Shown: piece by piece, positions 45,254-55,092 of the stretch
How positions within the stretch are numbered: the stretch's first letter is position 1
Layout of the letters: each line of letters opens with the position of its first letter
Assembly (NCBI RefSeq): GCF_013032855.1
Contig: NZ_WQDA01000002.1
Span: 1-64,000 of the forward strand
Direction: 5' to 3'
From: Ruegeria arenilitoris
GTDB lineage: Bacteria; Pseudomonadota; Alphaproteobacteria; Rhodobacterales; Rhodobacteraceae
DNA: 64,000 nt
Notes under the pieces: model-generated
Databases searched by the model: none
What the model saw: only the letters and a program-made list of their open reading frames with translations
What the model was told of the DNA's origin: nothing
Translations under genes and position numbers: made by a program

Positions 45254-45349
45254 GCCTTTGGCCTTTCTGCCTGAGCGTTTTGAATGACAGATGCCCACAG
45301 AGCGGTCAATCGAATTGTCATGACGGCCTGTGTGATGCAAGATAAGCGA

Positions 45350-45829
45350 ATGAAAACAGTGCTTCGATTGCTTGTTCCCCTTGCCCTGCTGGCCGGATGC
45401 GGGCCGTTGTCGATGTATTATCGCGAAGGCGAAAGCGTCTCGCGGATGCAGGCAGAAACGACCGAATGCCAAGTGCAGGCGCTGAAGGATGCACCGGTTG
45501 CAAACCAGGTGCGCCAAAGCCCGCCCACCTATTGGCCGGGCCGCACCTATTGCGACGGGCGCGGGCGATGCTACCGCACCGGAGGATGGTGGGAGCCGGG
45601 CCGCGTTTACACCGTAGATGTAAATCAGGGGCTGCGAAACACGGTCGAGGCGCAGTGCATGGCCAAGAAGGGATACCGCCCCATCAGCCTGCCGCCCTGC
45701 AAACAGTCGGTCAAATCGGGCGTTCCGCCGACCCGAACTACCGTCCTGCCGCCGTTGGGCACGGCGTCCTGCTTCGTCAAATTTGACGACGGGTCATTCC
45801 AGATCATCACGCCGGGGTTGCCGGGCTGA
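45350..45829 (+). CDS. Small lipoprotein, function unknown
   Basis: A 159-residue lipoprotein with a clear signal and lipobox ending at C17 (LLAGC). The mature part is rich in cysteine, proline and tyrosine and has the pattern WPGRTYCDGRGRCYRTGGWW, suggesting disulfides in the periplasm. The ATG at 45350 is preferred because it gives a proper signal peptide; the ribosome site is weak. It points right, opposite to its neighbours, and ends 2 bases before the convergent MFS stop. Confidence 0.7.
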   Translation: MKTVLRLLVPLALLAGCGPLSMYYREGESVSRMQAETTECQVQALKDAPVANQVRQSPPTYWPGRTYCDGRGRCYRTGGWWEPGRVYTVDVNQGLRNTVEAQCMAKKGYRPISLPPCKQSVKSGVPPTRTTVLPPLGTASCFVKFDDGSFQIITPGLPG

Positions 45830-45831
45830 CC

Positions 45832-47013
45832 TCAGTCCAGATCGTCGGGTGACGATCGCCGGCGGAGTGACAGGAACAAATGTGCTGCGATGGCGGCCGC
45901 ATAGAATACAAGTACGGCCACAAACATCGAGCCTTCTCCGGCGCGCCAAAGGATTGCAAGCAGAACAGGTGTGCCCAGCAGGTTGCCCGCATTTCCCATC
46001 TGCGCCATCGCCCCATAGCTCAGCGCCTGATCCCGGGCCGAGCCATTCAGTTGAGGAACCGCCGCGAAACTGCCGCCCTGCACCAGGCCCAACACCGCAA
46101 ACAGTGCAATGCCGACAATGGGCAGAGGCGCTCCGAAAAACAGCAGGGCAAGGGCAGCCATCCCGGCCGCAAAACCAAGATTTACAACCGTGACCGCGGT
46201 CAGGAACGTCAAGAGCACGGGTACCGCGATCCACGACAGCACGATACCTGCCAGCGGCATCAGACTGGCTACAAGAACCGACTGATCTTCGGGCATACGG
46301 CCGGGCAGGATCGCCAGCAACGACACGAAGGTCAGTGTGTAGAAGAACCATCCGATCGCCGGTGCTGCCATGCGAGGCGAGCGGTAGGTTTCTAGATGCG
46401 TCTGCAGGATGGATCCCGGCCCCCACCCATGCCGTTCCGTCGCGATGGGCGGAACCTTTGGCGGAAACAGGGCGACCAGTCCTGCAATCAGCGCCATCAG
46501 GAACCCGTGGCCCATGAAGAAATCCGCCAATCCAAAACGCTGGATCAACGGAAGGCCGAACCAAGCGTTCAGCGCAAAGGCAACTCCAAAGAAAGAACTC
46601 CACAACACCATGGCGGCATTGCGCGCGGCTCCGCGTGTGATCTGTGCGATCAGCGTCGGAGCGGCAACCACGATCGCCAGATGCGAAACGCCCTCGATGA
46701 TCCGGCTGCCCAGCATCACGTGAAAACCGGGAATGGTGGACTGGAACACCGATACAACGCCGCCCAGCAGCAAACCGAACACCAGCAGGCGGACCGGTCC
46801 GAACTGCGCGGTAATGGCGCCTGACATGGCCCCCAACACGGCGCCCATCAAACTGATGATCGACAACAACCAGCCGATCGAATCCCCATAGCCTGGGTAC
46901 AATGCACCGACCGCGTCGAAGGCAACGGCGATCTTGGCGAACTGCGTGGCCGCGCCCAGTCCAGCCACCCATAACAGGATCACCTGCAGGAATATGCGAA
47001 AAGATTGAGTCAC
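45832..47013 (-). CDS. MFS transporter
   Basis: A 393-residue inner-membrane protein with about twelve helices of the major facilitator superfamily. Recognisable MFS traits are the helix 2-3 loop (AITAQFGPVRLL) and the helix 4 segment (SRIIEGVSHLAIVVAAPTLI). Substrate is unknown. It starts at GTG 47013 (GAGG about 13 bases upstream). It lies 43 bases downstream of an XRE regulator on the same strand, which probably controls it. Confidence 0.85.
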   Translation of the reverse strand: MTQSFRIFLQVILLWVAGLGAATQFAKIAVAFDAVGALYPGYGDSIGWLLSIISLMGAVLGAMSGAITAQFGPVRLLVFGLLLGGVVSVFQSTIPGFHVMLGSRIIEGVSHLAIVVAAPTLIAQITRGAARNAAMVLWSSFFGVAFALNAWFGLPLIQRFGLADFFMGHGFLMALIAGLVALFPPKVPPIATERHGWGPGSILQTHLETYRSPRMAAPAIGWFFYTLTFVSLLAILPGRMPEDQSVLVASLMPLAGIVLSWIAVPVLLTFLTAVTVVNLGFAAGMAALALLFFGAPLPIVGIALFAVLGLVQGGSFAAVPQLNGSARDQALSYGAMAQMGNAGNLLGTPVLLAILWRAGEGSMFVAVLVFYAAAIAAHLFLSLRRRSSPDDLD

Positions 47014-47056
47014 ACCCGCGTTCTACCCTCGGCCTCCGGCGAGGTGAACGCATATT

Positions 47057-47629
47057 TTATGCGGCGCGTACGCGCGTGCCGCTGACAAGGCGCACTGGGG
47101 TTCCATCGGCCAGATACAGTCGCTCCCATACGATTTGGCCTGCGCTGATGGTGATCTGGTCGTGCACGGCCTGAGAAGTGATGAAAGCTTTGGGATTTGG
47201 CATCTGCAGGTCCCACCAACCCTCGTCCGTCAGCTCCATTTCGGCCTGGCGGATCTCGTCGGTCGCAAACTGCCACAGCGACACCCCCAACAACGAGTGC
47301 TGGCTGGCTGACCAATCCCGTGCGCGGCTGGGTGAATAGGCCAGACAAACATGGCTCGCTTCGTCCACCAGATGGAGACAGGCTTGCGAACTGCCGACAA
47401 GCCGCTTCAGTGCTGCATCGTCGGCGCGGTGATCCGAAAGCGCCGTGAAAACCGCAGCTTGTTGTTCAGGGCTTGGGGTCTGGACCCCGTTTTCCCAGCG
47501 CGACACCGTGGCCTGATCGACCCGCATCACATGTGCAAGCGCCGCCTGCTTCATCCCGGTGGCCCGCCGAAGCCGTTTGAGACGACGAGCAAAGGCTGGA
47601 AATCCCTGCTGGATCATCGATAGCGTCAT
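47057..47629 (-). CDS. XRE-family transcriptional regulator
   Basis: A 190-residue regulator: an HTH_XRE domain at about residues 12-65 (GMKQAALAHVMRVDQATVSRWENG-like) and a C-terminal half that looks PAS-like and may sense a ligand (CLAYSPSRARDWSASQ, then TDEGWWDLQMP). The ligand is unknown. It follows ntrX by 40 bases and precedes the MFS gene on the same strand, so an XRE-MFS unit is likely. This block separates ntrX from trkA. Confidence 0.85.
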   Translation of the reverse strand: MTLSMIQQGFPAFARRLKRLRRATGMKQAALAHVMRVDQATVSRWENGVQTPSPEQQAAVFTALSDHRADDAALKRLVGSSQACLHLVDEASHVCLAYSPSRARDWSASQHSLLGVSLWQFATDEIRQAEMELTDEGWWDLQMPNPKAFITSQAVHDQITISAGQIVWERLYLADGTPVRLVSGTRVRAA

Positions 47630-47669: not shown

Positions 47670-49079
47670 CTACTCCGCCGGTTCAGGCTCGTCCAGTTGC
47701 GCCACCCGCGCGCCCGACTTGTTCGACGTCACCACACCCAGCGATTTCAGCTTGCGGTGCAAGGCGCTGCGTTCCATTCCAACGAAACTGGCCGTGCGGC
47801 TGATATTGCCGCCAAAGCGATTGATCTGGGTCAGCAGATACTCACGCTCGAACGCCTCTCGTGCCTCGCGCAGTGGCAGCGTTGCCAAAGCGCCCGACAG
47901 CACGACCCGGCCGGAATCGTCGGCCTTTTCCTCTTCATTCGGCAATTCCCGCGCTTCGATCGGTCCGGTGCCATCACCAAGGATCAAAACCCGCTCGACC
48001 AGGTTCTTCAACTGGCGCACGTTGCCGGGCCAACTCATGGTCTGCAGCAGAGCCACGGCCTCTTCCGACAACTCGCGCACGGGGAGGCCCTGGGTTTCGT
48101 TGCACATCTCGATGAAATGCTTGGCGAGAACAGGAATATCCTCGCGCCGTTCTTCCAAAGACGGCACCGCGATCGGGACGACGTTGAGGCGGTGATACAG
48201 CTCTTCGCGGAACCGGTCCGCGGCAATCTCGGTTTCAAGGTCGCGGTTAGTGGAAGAGATCACACGCAGATCGACACGCACGTTGTCCGAGCCACCCACC
48301 CGCTGAAACTGCTGATCAACGAGGACGCGCAAGATCTTGGACTGCGTGCCCAACGGCATGTCGGCAACCTCGTCGAAATAGACCACACCGCCATGGGCCT
48401 GTTCGAGCAGACCGGATTCAACGCCACGCTCGGCGGATTCACGGCCGAACAAAACTTCTTCCATGCGCTCGGGCTCGACCCCGGCGCAGTTGACTGTGAC
48501 AAAGGGCGCGTTCGCCCGGTTCGAGTGCGCGTGGATGTAGCGCGCGGCGATTTCCTTGCCCGATCCGGCGGGACCACGCAGCATCACCCGACCGTTGGAT
48601 TTGGTCACCTTGTCCAACTGACTCAGCATCGCGCGGAACGCAGCCGACTTGCCGATCATGTCGGAATTGCTGACTTCCTTGCGCTTAAGCGAGGCATTCT
48701 CGCGACGAAGGCGCGACGTTTCCATCGCGCGGCGGATCACCACCATCAACTGGTCGATGTTGAAGGGCTTTTCGATGAAATCATATGCCCCCTGCTTGAT
48801 CGCCGCGACGGCGATTTCGATATTCCCGTGCCCCGATATGATCACCACCGGAACATCCGGATTGTCGCGTTTGACCGCCTTCAGAATGTCGATCCCATCC
48901 ATGCGGCTGTCCTTGAGCCAGATGTCCAGGATCAACAACCCGGGTGGTTCTGCGTTGATCGCGGCCATGCACTCGTCCGAGTTGCCGGCCAGCCGGGTGG
49001 AATATCCTTCGTCCTCCAGAATGTCGGACACCAGTTCGCGAATATCGCGCTCGTCATCTACGATCAGAATGTCGCTCAT
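47670..49079 (-). CDS. ntrX: Nitrogen response regulator NtrX (lacks GAFTGA)
   Basis: A 469-residue response regulator: receiver domain (phosphoacceptor D52, acidic pair D8/D9, K104), AAA+ domain (Walker A GPAGSGKE at 169-176, Walker B VVYFDEVADM at 232-241) and a Fis-type helix-turn-helix at the C-terminus. The GAFTGA loop, which contacts sigma-54 and is expected between Walker A and Walker B, is missing: FGRES is followed directly by AERGVESG. In Rhodobacterales this is known for NtrC and implies sigma-70 promoters. NtrY is the partner kinase; the start overlaps the ntrY stop by ATGA. Confidence 0.95.
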   Translation of the reverse strand: MSDILIVDDERDIRELVSDILEDEGYSTRLAGNSDECMAAINAEPPGLLILDIWLKDSRMDGIDILKAVKRDNPDVPVVIISGHGNIEIAVAAIKQGAYDFIEKPFNIDQLMVVIRRAMETSRLRRENASLKRKEVSNSDMIGKSAAFRAMLSQLDKVTKSNGRVMLRGPAGSGKEIAARYIHAHSNRANAPFVTVNCAGVEPERMEEVLFGRESAERGVESGLLEQAHGGVVYFDEVADMPLGTQSKILRVLVDQQFQRVGGSDNVRVDLRVISSTNRDLETEIAADRFREELYHRLNVVPIAVPSLEERREDIPVLAKHFIEMCNETQGLPVRELSEEAVALLQTMSWPGNVRQLKNLVERVLILGDGTGPIEARELPNEEEKADDSGRVVLSGALATLPLREAREAFEREYLLTQINRFGGNISRTASFVGMERSALHRKLKSLGVVTSNKSGARVAQLDEPEPAE

Positions 49080-51364
49080 CTTTGGCCTGCTTTCAGTGTC
49101 TTGGATTTAATTGCCTGCTTTTGCGGCGCTGCGACCGGGGCCGTATTGGCCTTCGGCAACCGGATCACGGCCATTGCGCCAAAATGGTCCTGTCCGTCGA
49201 ACACGGGCGCATCCTCAAGGGTCAGCGTACCGCCGTGTTCTTCAATAATTTTCTTGACGATGGGAAGGCCCAGGCCAGTCCCTTCGTCGCGCGTCGTCAC
49301 ATAGGGCTCGAACAACCGCGCCCGGTCTTCCGGCAACCCGATGCCGTTGTCCGCGATGGTGATCAGTGTTCCGTCGTCATCCGTGGACAGGCGCACCTTG
49401 ATCTGCGGGCTGAGGTTGTCGGGCGGACCCTTCTTTTTCAGGGTTTCGATCGCTTCGCCGGCGTTCTTGATAAGATTCGTGAGCGCTTGGTTCAACATCG
49501 TCGCGTCCACATCAGCCAATACTGGCTGGTCCGGGATCTCCGCATCGATCTGAACGTCTGGCTGACCGGCCTGCTGCAGCAGAACCGCCTCACGCACCAA
49601 GCCCGCGATGTCTTCCTCGTGACGGTCGGGCTCGGGCATACGGGCGAACTTCGAGAATTCGTCGACGATCCGGCGCAGATCGTTGGTCTGGCGAACGATC
49701 ACGTCGGTCATGGATTCCAGGCTGGCGCTGTCCTCTTCATCCAGCTTCCGCGCAAACTTCCGCCGGATGCGTTCGGCGCTCAGCTGAATGGGGGTCAGCG
49801 GGTTCTTGATCTCATGCGCGATGCGGCGGGCTACGTCCCCCCAGGCCGCCATACGCTGGGCGCTGACCAGATCGGTCACGTCGTCAAAGGCGACCACGTA
49901 ACCTTCCAGCCTGCCGTCCTCGCCGCGTCGGGTTGCCATCCGGACCAGCAGGTTTTCCAACTGTCCCTTGCGGGTGACCTTGATTTCGTCCTGAATTGCT
50001 TCCTGGCTGCCTTCTTTCAGCGCTTCGAACAAAGGCAGGAACTCGGGCACGGCGATGCCGATAGCCAGTTGTTGTTCATGGCCTTTCCAGTCAAGCAAGC
50101 GCTCGGCCGAGCGGTTGACGAATGTCACCTGACCATCCGGATCCACCCCGACCACGCCCGAAGTCACCGAGCTGAGCACGGAGTCGAACAGCCGGCGGCG
50201 GCTTTCGATCTGGCGGGTGTTTTCCAGCAGCGTACCCCGCTGCACCTTCAATTGCCGGGTCATCTGGTTGAAATACCGCCCCAGCATGGCGATTTCGTCG
50301 TCGCTGGCCTCTTCGATGACCTGCACGTCCAGATCACCGGCCCCGACCCGCTGCGCGGCCGTGGTCAGGCGACCAACCGGGCGCGAGAGCCGCTCGGCGA
50401 ACCACATGCCCAGCGAAACGGCCGCCAAGATGAGGATTACCGCGAACCCCAGATACAGCAGCCCGAACTCGAACAGCACCCTGCCCCGTTCGTTTTCCAA
50501 CTGTTGATAGAACTGTGCGGTTTCCTTGGTGTCATCCAAAAGGGTCAACAACTGGCCATCTACTGCGCGGCTGACATACAGATATCGGTCCAGATAGGCT
50601 CGCAGCGGCACCAGAGCCCGGAATTCGTTGTTGGGCCAGTCCGCGATGATCAACAGCCCCTCGTCTCGGGCCTGCTCCAACTGCTCGGGTGTCGGCGGTT
50701 CGTAGTTGAACAGATAAGACCTGTCTCCGCGGGCCCGGATTTCGCCACTGCCGTCAATCACGTAGGCTTCGCGCAGTCCGCGCTGAATCTGTGCCTGCCC
50801 CTGGGCCAGCACCTCGCGCAGCTCGGCATCCGAGATGTAGAAGTCCAGCTTGCGTGCATTGTCCAGAAACCGCGCAAGAACCGTGGCATCCTGCGTCAGA
50901 CCCTGTTCGTGCTCTTGTTCATAGGCCTCGGCCGCCGTCAGCGAAGATCCGACCACCTGCCTGACCCGGTCCGAGAACCATCCTTCAAGCCCGATATTCA
51001 CGGTCAGACCAGCAAAAATCGCAACCGTCACCGTTGGCACCAGCGCCAACAGCGTGAACGCCCCGATCAGCCTCAGGTGTAGGCGAGAGCCCGCCGATTT
51101 GGCTCGACGCGCCGCAACCAGATTGCCCAGCTGTCCAAGAACCAGGGCCGCCACGACCAGGATGTAAACAAGGTCTGCCAGCAGAATCAGCCGAAGCGTG
51201 GGCGCATTCGCACCCAGGTCAAACGGCCCGATAACAAGGTAGGTCGCAAGGGTCAGGACCGGCCCCAACACAACCAGCCCCAAGGTGCCGAAATTGCGCA
51301 GTTTCCGGGACTTACGCCACCGATTCAGGGATAATGCCGGCCGTTTCTGTGCCCGGGATACCAC
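49076..51364 (-). CDS. ntrY: Sensor histidine kinase NtrY
   Basis: A 762-residue membrane kinase. Three N-terminal helices plus one near residues 300-325 frame a periplasmic domain (about 125-295); then come HAMP (about 325-380), PAS (about 385-495), the phosphorylated H517 in [10 protein letters not shown] and the ATPase domain (NLIKNAGEAIE, DNGIGLPE, GTGLGLPIVKK). It phosphorylates NtrX and in related bacteria responds to nitrogen and oxygen or redox state. The GTG at 51364 follows GAGGG. The last bases overlap ntrX by ATGA. Confidence 0.96.
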   Translation of the reverse strand: MVSRAQKRPALSLNRWRKSRKLRNFGTLGLVVLGPVLTLATYLVIGPFDLGANAPTLRLILLADLVYILVVAALVLGQLGNLVAARRAKSAGSRLHLRLIGAFTLLALVPTVTVAIFAGLTVNIGLEGWFSDRVRQVVGSSLTAAEAYEQEHEQGLTQDATVLARFLDNARKLDFYISDAELREVLAQGQAQIQRGLREAYVIDGSGEIRARGDRSYLFNYEPPTPEQLEQARDEGLLIIADWPNNEFRALVPLRAYLDRYLYVSRAVDGQLLTLLDDTKETAQFYQQLENERGRVLFEFGLLYLGFAVILILAAVSLGMWFAERLSRPVGRLTTAAQRVGAGDLDVQVIEEASDDEIAMLGRYFNQMTRQLKVQRGTLLENTRQIESRRRLFDSVLSSVTSGVVGVDPDGQVTFVNRSAERLLDWKGHEQQLAIGIAVPEFLPLFEALKEGSQEAIQDEIKVTRKGQLENLLVRMATRRGEDGRLEGYVVAFDDVTDLVSAQRMAAWGDVARRIAHEIKNPLTPIQLSAERIRRKFARKLDEEDSASLESMTDVIVRQTNDLRRIVDEFSKFARMPEPDRHEEDIAGLVREAVLLQQAGQPDVQIDAEIPDQPVLADVDATMLNQALTNLIKNAGEAIETLKKKGPPDNLSPQIKVRLSTDDDGTLITIADNGIGLPEDRARLFEPYVTTRDEGTGLGLPIVKKIIEEHGGTLTLEDAPVFDGQDHFGAMAVIRLPKANTAPVAAPQKQAIKSKTLKAGQR

Positions 51365-51463
51365 CGTCTGCCCTCATCCTGATGTGCCGCTTTCGCAGCG
51401 TACCGCCATATGTCGTGGTCTTTTCCGGGACTGTGCCCGGATGCCACGGTTTGTGTGGCGAGA

Positions 51464-52831
51464 TTACATCAGTTTGCGCCGACGTGTCACCTGAATATCG
51501 AGATCAGTGATTTTTTTGCGCAGCGTATTCCGATTTATCCCCAGCAAATCGGCACATTTTGCCTGATTTCCTCCGGTCGCATCCAGCGCGATTTCGATCA
51601 GCGGAGCCTCGACCTCGCGCAGAATGCGCTGGTACAGACCCGGTGGCGGCAGCATGTTTCCATGAAGGTCAAAGTAGCGCCGCAGATGCCGCGCAACCGA
51701 CGAAGACAGCTTCTCTCGTTCGCTCCCGCTCAGCAGTGGTTCGGCCTCGGGCTGACTGCCCAAGACGGCCTCGACCTCGGACTTGGTGATTTCGTCGGAT
51801 CGGCTTGTCAGGCTCAGCCGCCGGATAGCGTTTTCCAGTTGCCGCACGTTGCCGGGCCAGGAATACCGGCGCACAAGCTCGATCGCGTCAGGGCCCAACC
51901 GCCGCTTTGTGCCGTTTTCGCGTTCTTCGCGGGCCAGAAAATGCTCGGCCAGCAACAGGATGTCGTCGACCCGCTCGCGCAAGGCTGGCACATGGATGGT
52001 GGCACCGCAGAGGCGGTAATAAAGGTCCTGCCGCACCCGCCCGCTTTCCATCGCCTCGGTCAGGTCCGACTGGCTGGTCGCCATGAAGCGCGGAACGTGG
52101 TCGCCGGGCGTGTCCATCATCCGCACGATCCGGGCCTGGATTTCATCGTCCAGGTCTGCAATTTCGTCGATCAGCAAGGTACCGCCGCGCACCCGGGCCA
52201 TGACCCGGGCCGGACCCTCCAGGTCGCGCAGGTCTGCTGCAGTAGCAGTCACAAAAGGCAGTGTCCGCCGGTCTGAGAAATCGTGAATTGCCCTCGCAAT
52301 CAACGACTTGCCCGTGCCACTTTCACCGGAAATCATGACCGAAAGATCGGTGTTCATGACCCGGGCGACCAACCTGTACAGGGCTTGCATCACCGGAGTT
52401 CGACCGACCAATGGCAACTCGTCGGGGCGGTCTTCGGATGTGTCCGCGGGTTCGATCTGAACCCGCTGCTTGCGGTCCAACGCCCGGGCGGTGCGCTTCA
52501 TCAGATCCGGCAGGTCGAACGGCTTGGGCAGATAGTCATAGGCATCCGCCTCGGCCGCCTGGATCGCCGTCATGATCGTGTTCTGGGCCGAGATCACGAT
52601 CACCGGCAGGCCCGGCCGGTCCTGCGCGATCTTGGGCAGCATTTCCAACCCGTTGCCATCGGGCATGACCACATCCGAGATCACCACGTCGCCCTTGCCC
52701 TCACCGACCCAGCGCATCAGCGTCGTCAGTGACGAGGTCGCATGCACCTTGCAGCCCGCCCGCGTCAGGGCCTGGGTCAGAACCGTCCGGATCGTTCTGT
52801 CATCATCTGCAACCAGTACCGTGCCATCCAT
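51464..52831 (-). CDS. ntrC: Nitrogen regulation response regulator NtrC (lacks GAFTGA)
   Basis: A 455-residue enhancer-binding-type regulator phosphorylated by NtrB on D53. Receiver (1-120), AAA+ domain with intact Walker A GESGTGK (169-175) and Walker B ([12 protein letters not shown], about 216-227), and a C-terminal Fis-type HTH ([15 protein letters not shown]). The GAFTGA loop is absent: between residues 200 and 216 only [15 protein letters not shown] is present. The Rhodobacter capsulatus NtrC also lacks it and activates sigma-70 promoters. AAGGAG lies 8 bases before the ATG. It ends 99 bases upstream of ntrY. Confidence 0.95.
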
Positions 52832-52847: not shown

Positions 52848-53923
52848 TTATTCTTTGTCCTGCCCTGCCTCGCGCGGCGCGCGGCGCAGCGACAGCCGGA
52901 AGACTGTCCGCCCCGGCACCGACTCGGCTGTGATCCAACCGTCGTGGTCGGACACGATCTTGCTGACCAGCGCCAAGCCAAGGCCGGTGCCGTTTTCCTT
53001 GCCGGATACGAACGGGTCGAAAATATCGCCGCGGATGTCCTCGGGCAGGCCCGGGCCATCGTCGATGATCTCGATCTGCAGCGGTAGCGAGTGGCCCGAG
53101 CCATCACTGCGCCGCAGACGGAAGGAATGTTCGAAATAGGTGTGCAGGCGGATCGTTCCGCCCTCGGGGCCGGCGGCCTCGGACGCGTTCTTGAGCAGGT
53201 TCAGAACCACCTGCAACAGCTGATCCGGATCACCATAGGCCAGTGGCAGCGACGGGTCGTAATCCTCGATGATGGTCATGTCCGCGCCGAAGCCCAGCAG
53301 CGCCGAGCGGCGCGCGCGGTCCAGAACATCGTGGATGTTGACCGGCTTGAACTCGGGCCGCGAGAGGTTTCCGAACTGCTCGACCTGCTCAAGCAGCTTC
53401 ACGATCCGGCGACTCTCGGCCACGATAAGGTCTGTCAACTCAAGATCTTGCGGGCCGATATTCATGCTCAGCAACTGTGCAGCACCGGTGATCCCAGCCA
53501 GCGGGTTCTTGATTTCATGCGCCAGCATCTCGGCCATGCCGATCGCCGACTGCGCCGCCGATTTGACCGTGTTGCCGCGAGTCATGCGGGTTGCCAGTTC
53601 GCGCGGCGAGACGATCATGATCATCGACCCCGGATGCCCCAGCAGAGGCGCGATCTGCAGCGCGCATTGCAGCGGCGCGCGATTGCCCGAACCCACATCC
53701 ACGTCATTCACGAACAACGGCGTGCCCTGCGCGCGGGCGCGCGTGAACGCCTCTTCCAACGGCGCGTCCACGGCGATCTGGTCCCAGACCGGATGCCCGA
53801 CCACCGATTTGCGCGAAGCGTTCAGGAACCCCTCACCCGAGGAATTGACGTCGGCGATGCGGTCCTCGGGGTCGATGATGAAGGCGGGAACCGGCAGCGA
53901 AGCCCAGATGACCTGATCCGAAA

Positions 53924-53927
<4 letters not shown>
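52848..53927 (-). CDS. ntrB: Nitrogen regulation sensor histidine kinase NtrB
   Basis: A soluble 359-residue kinase that phosphorylates and dephosphorylates NtrC under control of PII. It has a PAS domain (about 1-110), the phosphoacceptor H137 in [12 protein letters not shown] and the ATPase motifs [17 protein letters not shown] and GTGLGLALV. The start overlaps the dusB stop (ATGA), and ntrC follows after 16 bases, so dusB-ntrB-ntrC is one operon. No glnB or glnK is in the window. Confidence 0.96.
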
Positions 53928-54940
<1,013 letters not shown>

Positions 54941-55092
54941 ATCGAATCCGGGGCATATGAACAACAAATCCACGACCAGCAAGCCCGCAAAATCATCATA
55001 TGCCTAATTTTTAATCAGCTAGCCGCGAGTGATTGCCTCTGCTTTCACCGCCGCCTAAACACGGAAGCCAAACGAAGGTCGGAAATTCAAAC

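Follow-up and report, generated by a model that had tools for sequence, protein, structure and literature searches.

NtrC and NtrX without the sigma-54 contact motif in a Ruegeria nitrogen-regulation cluster, in a genome without detectable rpoN

Can a nitrogen-regulation cluster whose two response regulators, NtrC and NtrX, both lack the GAFTGA motif of sigma-54 activators still serve sigma-54 promoters, and did the two proteins part with the motif together? The locus raising this question lies on contig NZ_WQDA01000002.1 of Ruegeria arenilitoris (GCF_013032855.1), the first 64,000 nucleotides of which (the window) were analysed. A sequence-only reading of this DNA had noted the missing motif beside intact Walker A and Walker B motifs in both proteins, had likened the case to Rhodobacter capsulatus NtrC, which uses sigma-70, and had treated the joint absence in two paralogues of one operon as special, meaning that neither could open sigma-54 promoters in the usual way. 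We consider it likely that the locus is an ordinary ntrBC-ntrYX cluster of a Rhodobacteraceae-type bacterium without detectable sigma-54, in which both regulators derive from sigma-54 activators and now work on sigma-70 (RpoD) promoters.

Both regulators are encoded on the minus strand by intact open reading frames (ORFs) and comprise a receiver domain, an AAA+ domain and a Fis-type helix-turn-helix (HTH): ntrC at 51464-52831 (455 amino acids), lacking the loops L1 (the GAFTGA loop) and L2, and ntrX at 47670-49079 (469 amino acids), lacking GAFTGA and having L2. These loops are described as contacting sigma-54 and the -12/-11 promoter DNA (PMC7175178). In neither window protein do the aligned L1 columns contain GAFTGA or a variant matching G[AS][FY][TS]G[AS]. 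Walker A, Walker B and the arginine fingers expected of a bacterial enhancer-binding protein (bEBP) are present in both, as is the phospho-acceptor Asp. In NtrC these elements comprise the phospho-acceptor motif DVVMPD (52658-52675), Walker A GESGTGKS (52304-52327), Walker B TLLIDE (52163-52180) and the arginine-finger segment (52010-52039), all on the minus strand; the domain is 18 residues shorter at the canonical place of L1 (amino acids 197-217, 52181-52243, minus strand) and 10 residues shorter than canonical in the stretch that lacks the pre-sensor I loop L2 (amino acids 238-254, 52070-52120, minus strand). NtrX, by comparison, carries Walker A GPAGSGKE (48552-48575), Walker B VVYFDE (48369-48386), the arginine-finger segment RFREELYHRL (48186-48215) and a kept L2, FQRVGGSDNVRVD (48270-48308), and its L1 region, LFGRESAERGVESGLLEQAHGG (48387-48452), is only four residues shorter than canonical, all again on the minus strand. 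The switch-asparagine column holds Thr in NtrC and Asn in NtrX. The absence of GAFTGA beside intact Walker motifs, as first read, is thus borne out by ORFs, alignment and loop lengths, and the 10-residue loss of L2 in NtrC is an addition to that reading.

An AlphaFold model of NtrC, built on a 31-sequence alignment (best of five models, with a mean predicted local distance difference test score, pLDDT, of 81 and a predicted template modelling score of 0.53), places a helix (229-239) followed by a strand (248-253) where L2 would lie. Its AAA+ core (residues 151-350) has block pLDDT values of 79-93 and superimposes on the NtrC1 ATPase domain (3m0e) with a Z score of 23.9 and a root mean square deviation of 2.0 over 218 residues, fold matches to the receiver domain alone being disregarded. 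As modelled, the NtrC AAA+ core is intact, with loops L1 and L2 excised.

The alignment across relatives that the sequence-only reading had proposed covered 80 named loci plus the window, giving 81 NtrX and, once the five named loci without NtrC were dropped, 76 NtrC. GAFTGA occurs in 14 of the 76 NtrC, all 14 from rpoN-positive genomes outside the core Rhodobacteraceae clade, and in none of the 81 NtrX, whose genomes are rpoN-positive in 36 cases, negative in 41, uncertain in two (L093 and L097, the latter a piece at a contig edge) and outside the rpoN search in two (L039 and L090). The 62 loop-less NtrC divide likewise into 40 negative, 18 positive, two uncertain and two outside the search. 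The distance from Walker A Lys to Walker B Asp is 64 residues in every GAFTGA-bearing NtrC and 46 in the window NtrC and in 56 of the 62 loop-less NtrC (window included), against 60 in the window NtrX and 59-64 in all 81 NtrX. From Walker B Asp to the first arginine finger there are 54 residues in all 14 canonical NtrC and in all 81 NtrX, and 44 in the window NtrC and in 55 of the 62 loop-less NtrC. By these alignments, the two losses are of unlike kind: NtrC has lost L1 and L2, and NtrX part of L1 only.

The catalytic residues do not fare alike either. Of the 62 loop-less NtrC, 61 retain Walker A Lys and all 62 both arginine fingers, against 56 with Walker B Asp, 52 with Walker B Glu and two with the switch Asn; among the 81 NtrX, Lys, fingers and Walker B Asp are kept throughout, Glu in 77 and the switch Asn in 44. 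Because NtrX retains Walker B Glu in 77/81 and the L2 length in all, its mechanism, as far as sequence suggests, need not equal that of NtrC. The four NtrX with Gly in place of Walker B Glu (L068, L069, L091 and L099) belong to Octadecabacter or Pseudooctadecabacter and have Walker A in the forms GESGTGKE, GEGGSGKE or GEGGAGKE. In two Paracoccus loci (L093 and L103) the NtrC AAA+ domain is further altered, with Walker B reading IEDP or IENP and lengths of 45/49, and GAFTGA is found in neither NtrC nor NtrX; the L093 genome has two weak rpoN pieces within one 468-amino-acid frame, which may be a divergent rpoN of full length.

The condition of NtrX extends beyond the order. In a class-wide draw of 30 alphaproteobacterial loci, none of the 26 NtrX extracted (four loci are not among them) carries GAFTGA. 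A sample of the same phylum outside the class comprised 40 regions picked from the matches listed, two partial and some lower-ranking ones being excluded: 24 NtrX-like proteins ending in SALHRK include no GAFTGA and one GAFPGA, the other 23 being without the motif, two of them with a decayed remnant; 12 proteins ending in SQLHRK have GAFTGA or GAFSGA in six cases and GAFPGA in six; and the remaining four have no motif. The GAFPGA form (Thr to Pro), found outside the class in L221, L246, L250-L253 and L260, is a possible intermediate of loop decay. The idea that both paralogues of one operon lost their motif jointly therefore does not stand: with NtrX lacking the motif in all 81 loci (and in all 26 of the class-wide draw) and NtrC having undergone a separate, bigger, two-loop deletion, the double absence is not one event.

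That neither regulator opens sigma-54 promoters was the right outcome, and it has a simpler ground than the one first offered: no sigma-54 gene is detectable. Neither PF04552 nor TIGR02395 matches in the genome of the window (3.82 Mb, nine contigs, 99.48% complete), although both models match in 4/14 control genomes (Escherichia coli, Bacillus subtilis, Caulobacter and a Bacteroides), so that the sigma-54 partner a bEBP requires in the same cell was not found. By PF00158, HTH_8 and sequence reading, this genome encodes four NtrC-family regulators, none with GAFTGA; besides NtrC and NtrX there are two read as DctD-like, at C3:477110-477568 (L002) and C3:410991-411392 (L004/L006). In the second of these Walker A Lys is gone (GPPGSGIS); its neighbours, by reading, are a sensor kinase on one side and a TRAP-type binding-protein-like gene on the other. 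The remaining PF00158 matches were rejected as ClpA-, ClpB- and MoxR-like ATPases by reading, and a fifth HTH_8 match as a receiver-HTH protein of 189 amino acids that has no AAA+ domain and reads as RegA-like. Judged by their sequences, none of the four could be a canonical sigma-54 activator, and with no detectable rpoN and no GAFTGA in any of them, sigma-54 activation is out of reach in this bacterium.

How common this state is was surveyed in 390 genomes of the order, counting rpoN as present at E<1e-20. It is found in 99 and not in 291, or about three quarters, two of the latter having weak partial matches; matches with E above 1e-8 (39/390 genomes, about 30-40 residues long among those listed) were taken as chance, weak matches in G162 and G439 were not counted, and fragments such as those in G244 and G414 were. 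Since 110/144 genomes of a class draw pass the same cut-off, the order looks unusual within its class for the scarcity of rpoN. An E-x-GAFTGA DNA pattern gave 64 matches in 49 genomes of the order, eight of them chance matches (three in rpoN-positive genomes) and 56 genuine ones in bEBP frames, the latter in 41 genomes, all rpoN-positive; none falls in the 291 genomes without rpoN, a limited test as the strict pattern is blind to GAFSGA and GAYTGA and requires the leading E. Matches in five rpoN-less genomes were considered as exceptions and rejected, none lying in a bEBP frame, and 58/99 rpoN-positive genomes have no genuine match. Assigned by best BLAST match to a small reference set, only 3/56 genuine matches are NtrC orthologues (L132, L184 and L186, which share 69-78% identity with the basal NtrC of L098 or L105) and none is NtrX. 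A full rpoN occurs at G405:C12:104066-105310 (L194), in the sole listed genome of the same genus to have one; that genome has no E-x-GAFTGA match, and a crude motif scan of about 9 kb around this rpoN found no bEBP.

A tree of concatenated NtrC and NtrX, with the NtrC loop columns removed, gives an order to these events. Branches outside the core form a series in the two distances defined above: L098 is intact at 64/54, L095 stands at 60/54 with GAFTGA gone and the L2 length kept, and L100 is at 56/44; the last two branch between the GAFTGA-bearing L098 and the core Rhodobacteraceae, which are mostly 46/44. The TIGR01818 ntrC score drops in step with this series among the proteins tried, from 701 (L114) and 671 (L098), both GAFTGA-bearing, through 596 in the transitional L095 to 397-405 in L040, L083 and the window (cut-off 558.6). 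The NtrC loop state changes at least twice on the tree (at the base of the core Rhodobacteraceae and in Henriciella) and rpoN at least 12 times, counts that are blind to gain versus loss on a quick tree in which 24/73 inner branches are open and L111, L101, L100 and L097 are long. We infer from these sequences that NtrX left sigma-54 before the Alphaproteobacteria arose or at the base or radiation of the class; that in NtrC L1 probably decayed first and L2 next, at the base of the core Rhodobacteraceae; and that sigma-54 would have been gained or lost many times within that core, the loop-less NtrC persisting.

The likeliest mechanism, by analogy, is sigma-70 control by a phosphorylated, ATP-bound regulator. 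NtrB or NtrY would phosphorylate the receiver, and phosphorylation with ATP binding would set an oligomeric, DNA-binding form, for which Walker A and the arginine fingers are kept; bound upstream, this form may then recruit or stabilize sigma-70 RNA polymerase in the manner reported for R. capsulatus NtrC, with ATP hydrolysis dispensable or nearly so in NtrC. Assembly that depends on ATP binding without hydrolysis predicts that Lys and the fingers are kept and that Walker B Glu and the switch Asn are relaxed, as seen in loop-less NtrC. The NtrC of R. capsulatus is reported to act with RpoD/sigma-70 (PMC6925177, PMC10274813), in support of the analogy first drawn, and to depend on binding ATP, not on hydrolysing it (PMC10274813). 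NtrX would form a branch of its own that became independent of sigma-54 earlier and that activates or represses transcription; in R. sphaeroides it is described as activating, and perhaps repressing, envelope genes (PMC7240162). Taken further, and with confidence a little short of even, Rhodobacteraceae NtrC may be an AAA+ protein that has had both channel loops neatly removed and that keeps the nucleotide pocket and arginine fingers only as an ATP-binding-gated sigma-70 assembly switch, a rewiring that was completed a single time, at the family's base, and allowed repeated loss of sigma-54 in Gram-negatives with genomes of 2.5-5.8 Mb.

Several observations pull the other way. Profile searches of a nine-contig assembly are the ground for calling rpoN absent, and the genome-wide -24/-12 pattern is uninformative: TGGCAC-N5-TTGCW has five matches in the window's genome versus four in a reversed control, and its counts in rpoN-negative and rpoN-positive genomes of the 390 overlap, as judged by eye without a tally. 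The NtrC of Caulobacter, which likewise has no GAFTGA, reportedly depends on residues of both Walker motifs, A and B (PMC10274813), so that dispensable hydrolysis may not generalize. The Walker B of the window NtrC is intact, and its decay in some relatives therefore says little about this copy. Conservation of the arginine fingers may be structural, to judge from the second DctD-like protein, which keeps the segment without the Walker A Lys. The other four models of NtrC scored 66-73 against 81 for the one used. Finally, L095, the earliest loop-less branch, has no rpoN match, which lends no support to a loss of the loop before that of sigma-54, and on a quick tree with many weak branches repeated rpoN gain is indistinguishable from repeated loss.

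A different account would make NtrC and NtrX classical dimeric regulators without any ATP-driven machine, the AAA+ domain surviving as a relic that holds the dimer. The loss of L1 and L2 in NtrC, the variable Walker B Glu and switch Asn of its loop-less forms, the DctD-like paralogue without Walker A Lys and the altered Walker B of the two Paracoccus NtrC all fit it, and full-length Brucella NtrX reportedly binds ATP without ATPase activity or oligomerization. Retention of Walker A Lys in 61/62 loop-less NtrC and 81/81 NtrX, and of the fingers in all, would be odd if nucleotide were irrelevant, and in Caulobacter mutation of Walker A or of Walker B is reported to prevent growth with ammonium as sole nitrogen source (PMC10274813); we regard this account as rather unlikely. 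Much less credible is action on sigma-54 promoters in mixed oligomers with a GAFTGA-bearing activator. It draws on Caulobacter, where NtrC DNA-binding-domain mutants are reported to raise sigma-54-dependent flagellar transcripts (PMC12421884), an exception to the rule that without GAFTGA there is no sigma-54 effect; the outcome of that rule nevertheless holds in the window's genome, in which neither a GAFTGA-bearing partner nor rpoN was found, so that mixed oligomers are excluded unless both lie in unassembled sequence.

The history could also have run in reverse, the loop drifting away after sigma-54 was lost, NtrC activity being taken over later and present rpoN genes being re-acquired. All 40 rpoN-negative genomes with NtrC (window included) have the loop-less form, all 14 GAFTGA-bearing NtrC come from rpoN-positive genomes, and the lack of an rpoN match in L095 points the same way. 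This scenario sits poorly, however, with loop-less NtrC in 18 rpoN-positive genomes, with NtrX lacking the motif in 36 loci of rpoN-bearing genomes, with about two changes of the loop against at least 12 of rpoN, and with a deletion length fixed at 46 residues in 56/62, which is unlike drift; we hold it doubtful. As for a frameshift, pseudogene or assembly artefact, which would make the missing motif no more than an error, the frames are open without an internal stop, no support was found, and the same deletion length in 56/62 loop-less NtrC refutes it, leaving the idea with practically no weight. Sigma-70 control by loop-less regulators with a retained nucleotide pocket is the reading that we prefer.

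The cluster itself is conventional. Its order on the minus strand is dus/nifR3-ntrB-ntrC-ntrY-ntrX, beginning upstream with the tRNA-dihydrouridine synthase gene dus/nifR3 (53924-54982, by domain match) and the sensor kinase gene ntrB (52848-53927; PAS, HisKA and HATPase domains), and with the sensor kinase gene ntrY (49076-51364; NtrY_N, HAMP, PAS, HisKA and HATPase) between the two regulators. The identity of NtrC follows its position after ntrB and before ntrYX, and in the 30 relatives with extracted NtrC coordinates the two regulators likewise share a strand, NtrC being the upstream one; Pfam assigns it Response_reg, Sigma54_activat, AAA_lid_14 and HTH_8, and its best NCBIfam equivalog is TIGR01818 ntrC, at 404.5 bits below the 558.6 cut-off for membership. 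The start of ntrX overlaps by four bases the end of the upstream kinase gene, whose product has the NtrY_N domain, and NtrX scores 762.4 bits against the NF051870 equivalog (cut-off 600; residues 1-449 on profile positions 1-452), placing it within that family. In some relatives trkA and hfq follow directly after ntrX. In the window the interval between ntrX and a trkA-like gene (45284-47629) holds an HTH regulator (47057-47629), a major facilitator superfamily transporter (45832-47013) and a small ORF. Two tRNA-Asn(GTT) genes lie on the plus strand at 8-82 and 1920-1994 of the window, about 1.9 kb apart.

Much of the finding is known, with a modestly interesting evolutionary corollary. Already in print (PMC10274813) are Rhodobacterales NtrC without the L1 loop and the absence of GAFTGA from both NtrC and NtrX of Caulobacter; neither the loss of L2 in NtrC and the graded sequence of that loss nor the extent to which rpoN is missing from the family turned up in a literature search that stopped short of subscription papers. 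Loop-less regulators are still labelled sigma-54-dependent, as in work on Paracoccus denitrificans, for both NtrC and NtrX in PMC5424462 and for NtrX in PMC9409073, whereas the two other Paracoccus loci analysed here have GAFTGA in neither protein. The natural series from L098 through L095 and L100 to the core makes the remodelling from sigma-54 to sigma-70 activation testable step by step, and the patchiness of rpoN in the order qualifies the published view of sigma-54 as all but universal among lipopolysaccharide-bearing diderms (PMC3162934).

R. capsulatus NtrC is among the nearest known systems. The window NtrC falls in the Rhodobacteraceae part of the NtrC tree and shares with it ntrB/ntrC nitrogen control and the kind of L1 deletion that takes in GAFTGA, a deletion described for other Rhodobacterales NtrC as well and as larger than that of Caulobacter (PMC10274813). 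The R. capsulatus protein is reported to activate nifA1, nifA2 and anfA with RpoD in a bacterium that has rpoN for nitrogen fixation (PMC6925177), whereas none is detectable in the window's genome. Activation of transcription with the RpoD holoenzyme and a need for ATP binding but not hydrolysis are reported for R. capsulatus only and may apply to the window NtrC by analogy; for the L2 deletion, the loci measured are two that bear the name Rhodobacter (L086 and L088) rather than R. capsulatus itself. Caulobacter crescentus resembles the window in having both paralogues without GAFTGA and an NtrC that acts on sigma-70 promoters, and differs in an eight-residue L1 deletion, in keeping rpoN and in having FlbD and TacA with GAFTGA (PMC10274813), against none of four regulators here. 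Brucella abortus NtrX (PDB 5m7n/5m7o/5m7p), from another order, is the best PDB match of the window NtrX over near full length (E 2.3e-156) and aligns with the same shortened L1 without GAFTGA; the title of its paper calls it an unusual NtrC family member. HupR, TyrR, DhaR and VpsR are likewise NtrC-family proteins with a defective GAFTGA, held to act without sigma-54; members of this kind are said to work with sigma-70, and Jannaschia sp. CCS1 to be without sigma-54 (PMC3162934). Those four are described as exceptions among GAFTGA-bearing members, whereas in the genome of the window all members found are loop-less and sigma-54 is undetectable.

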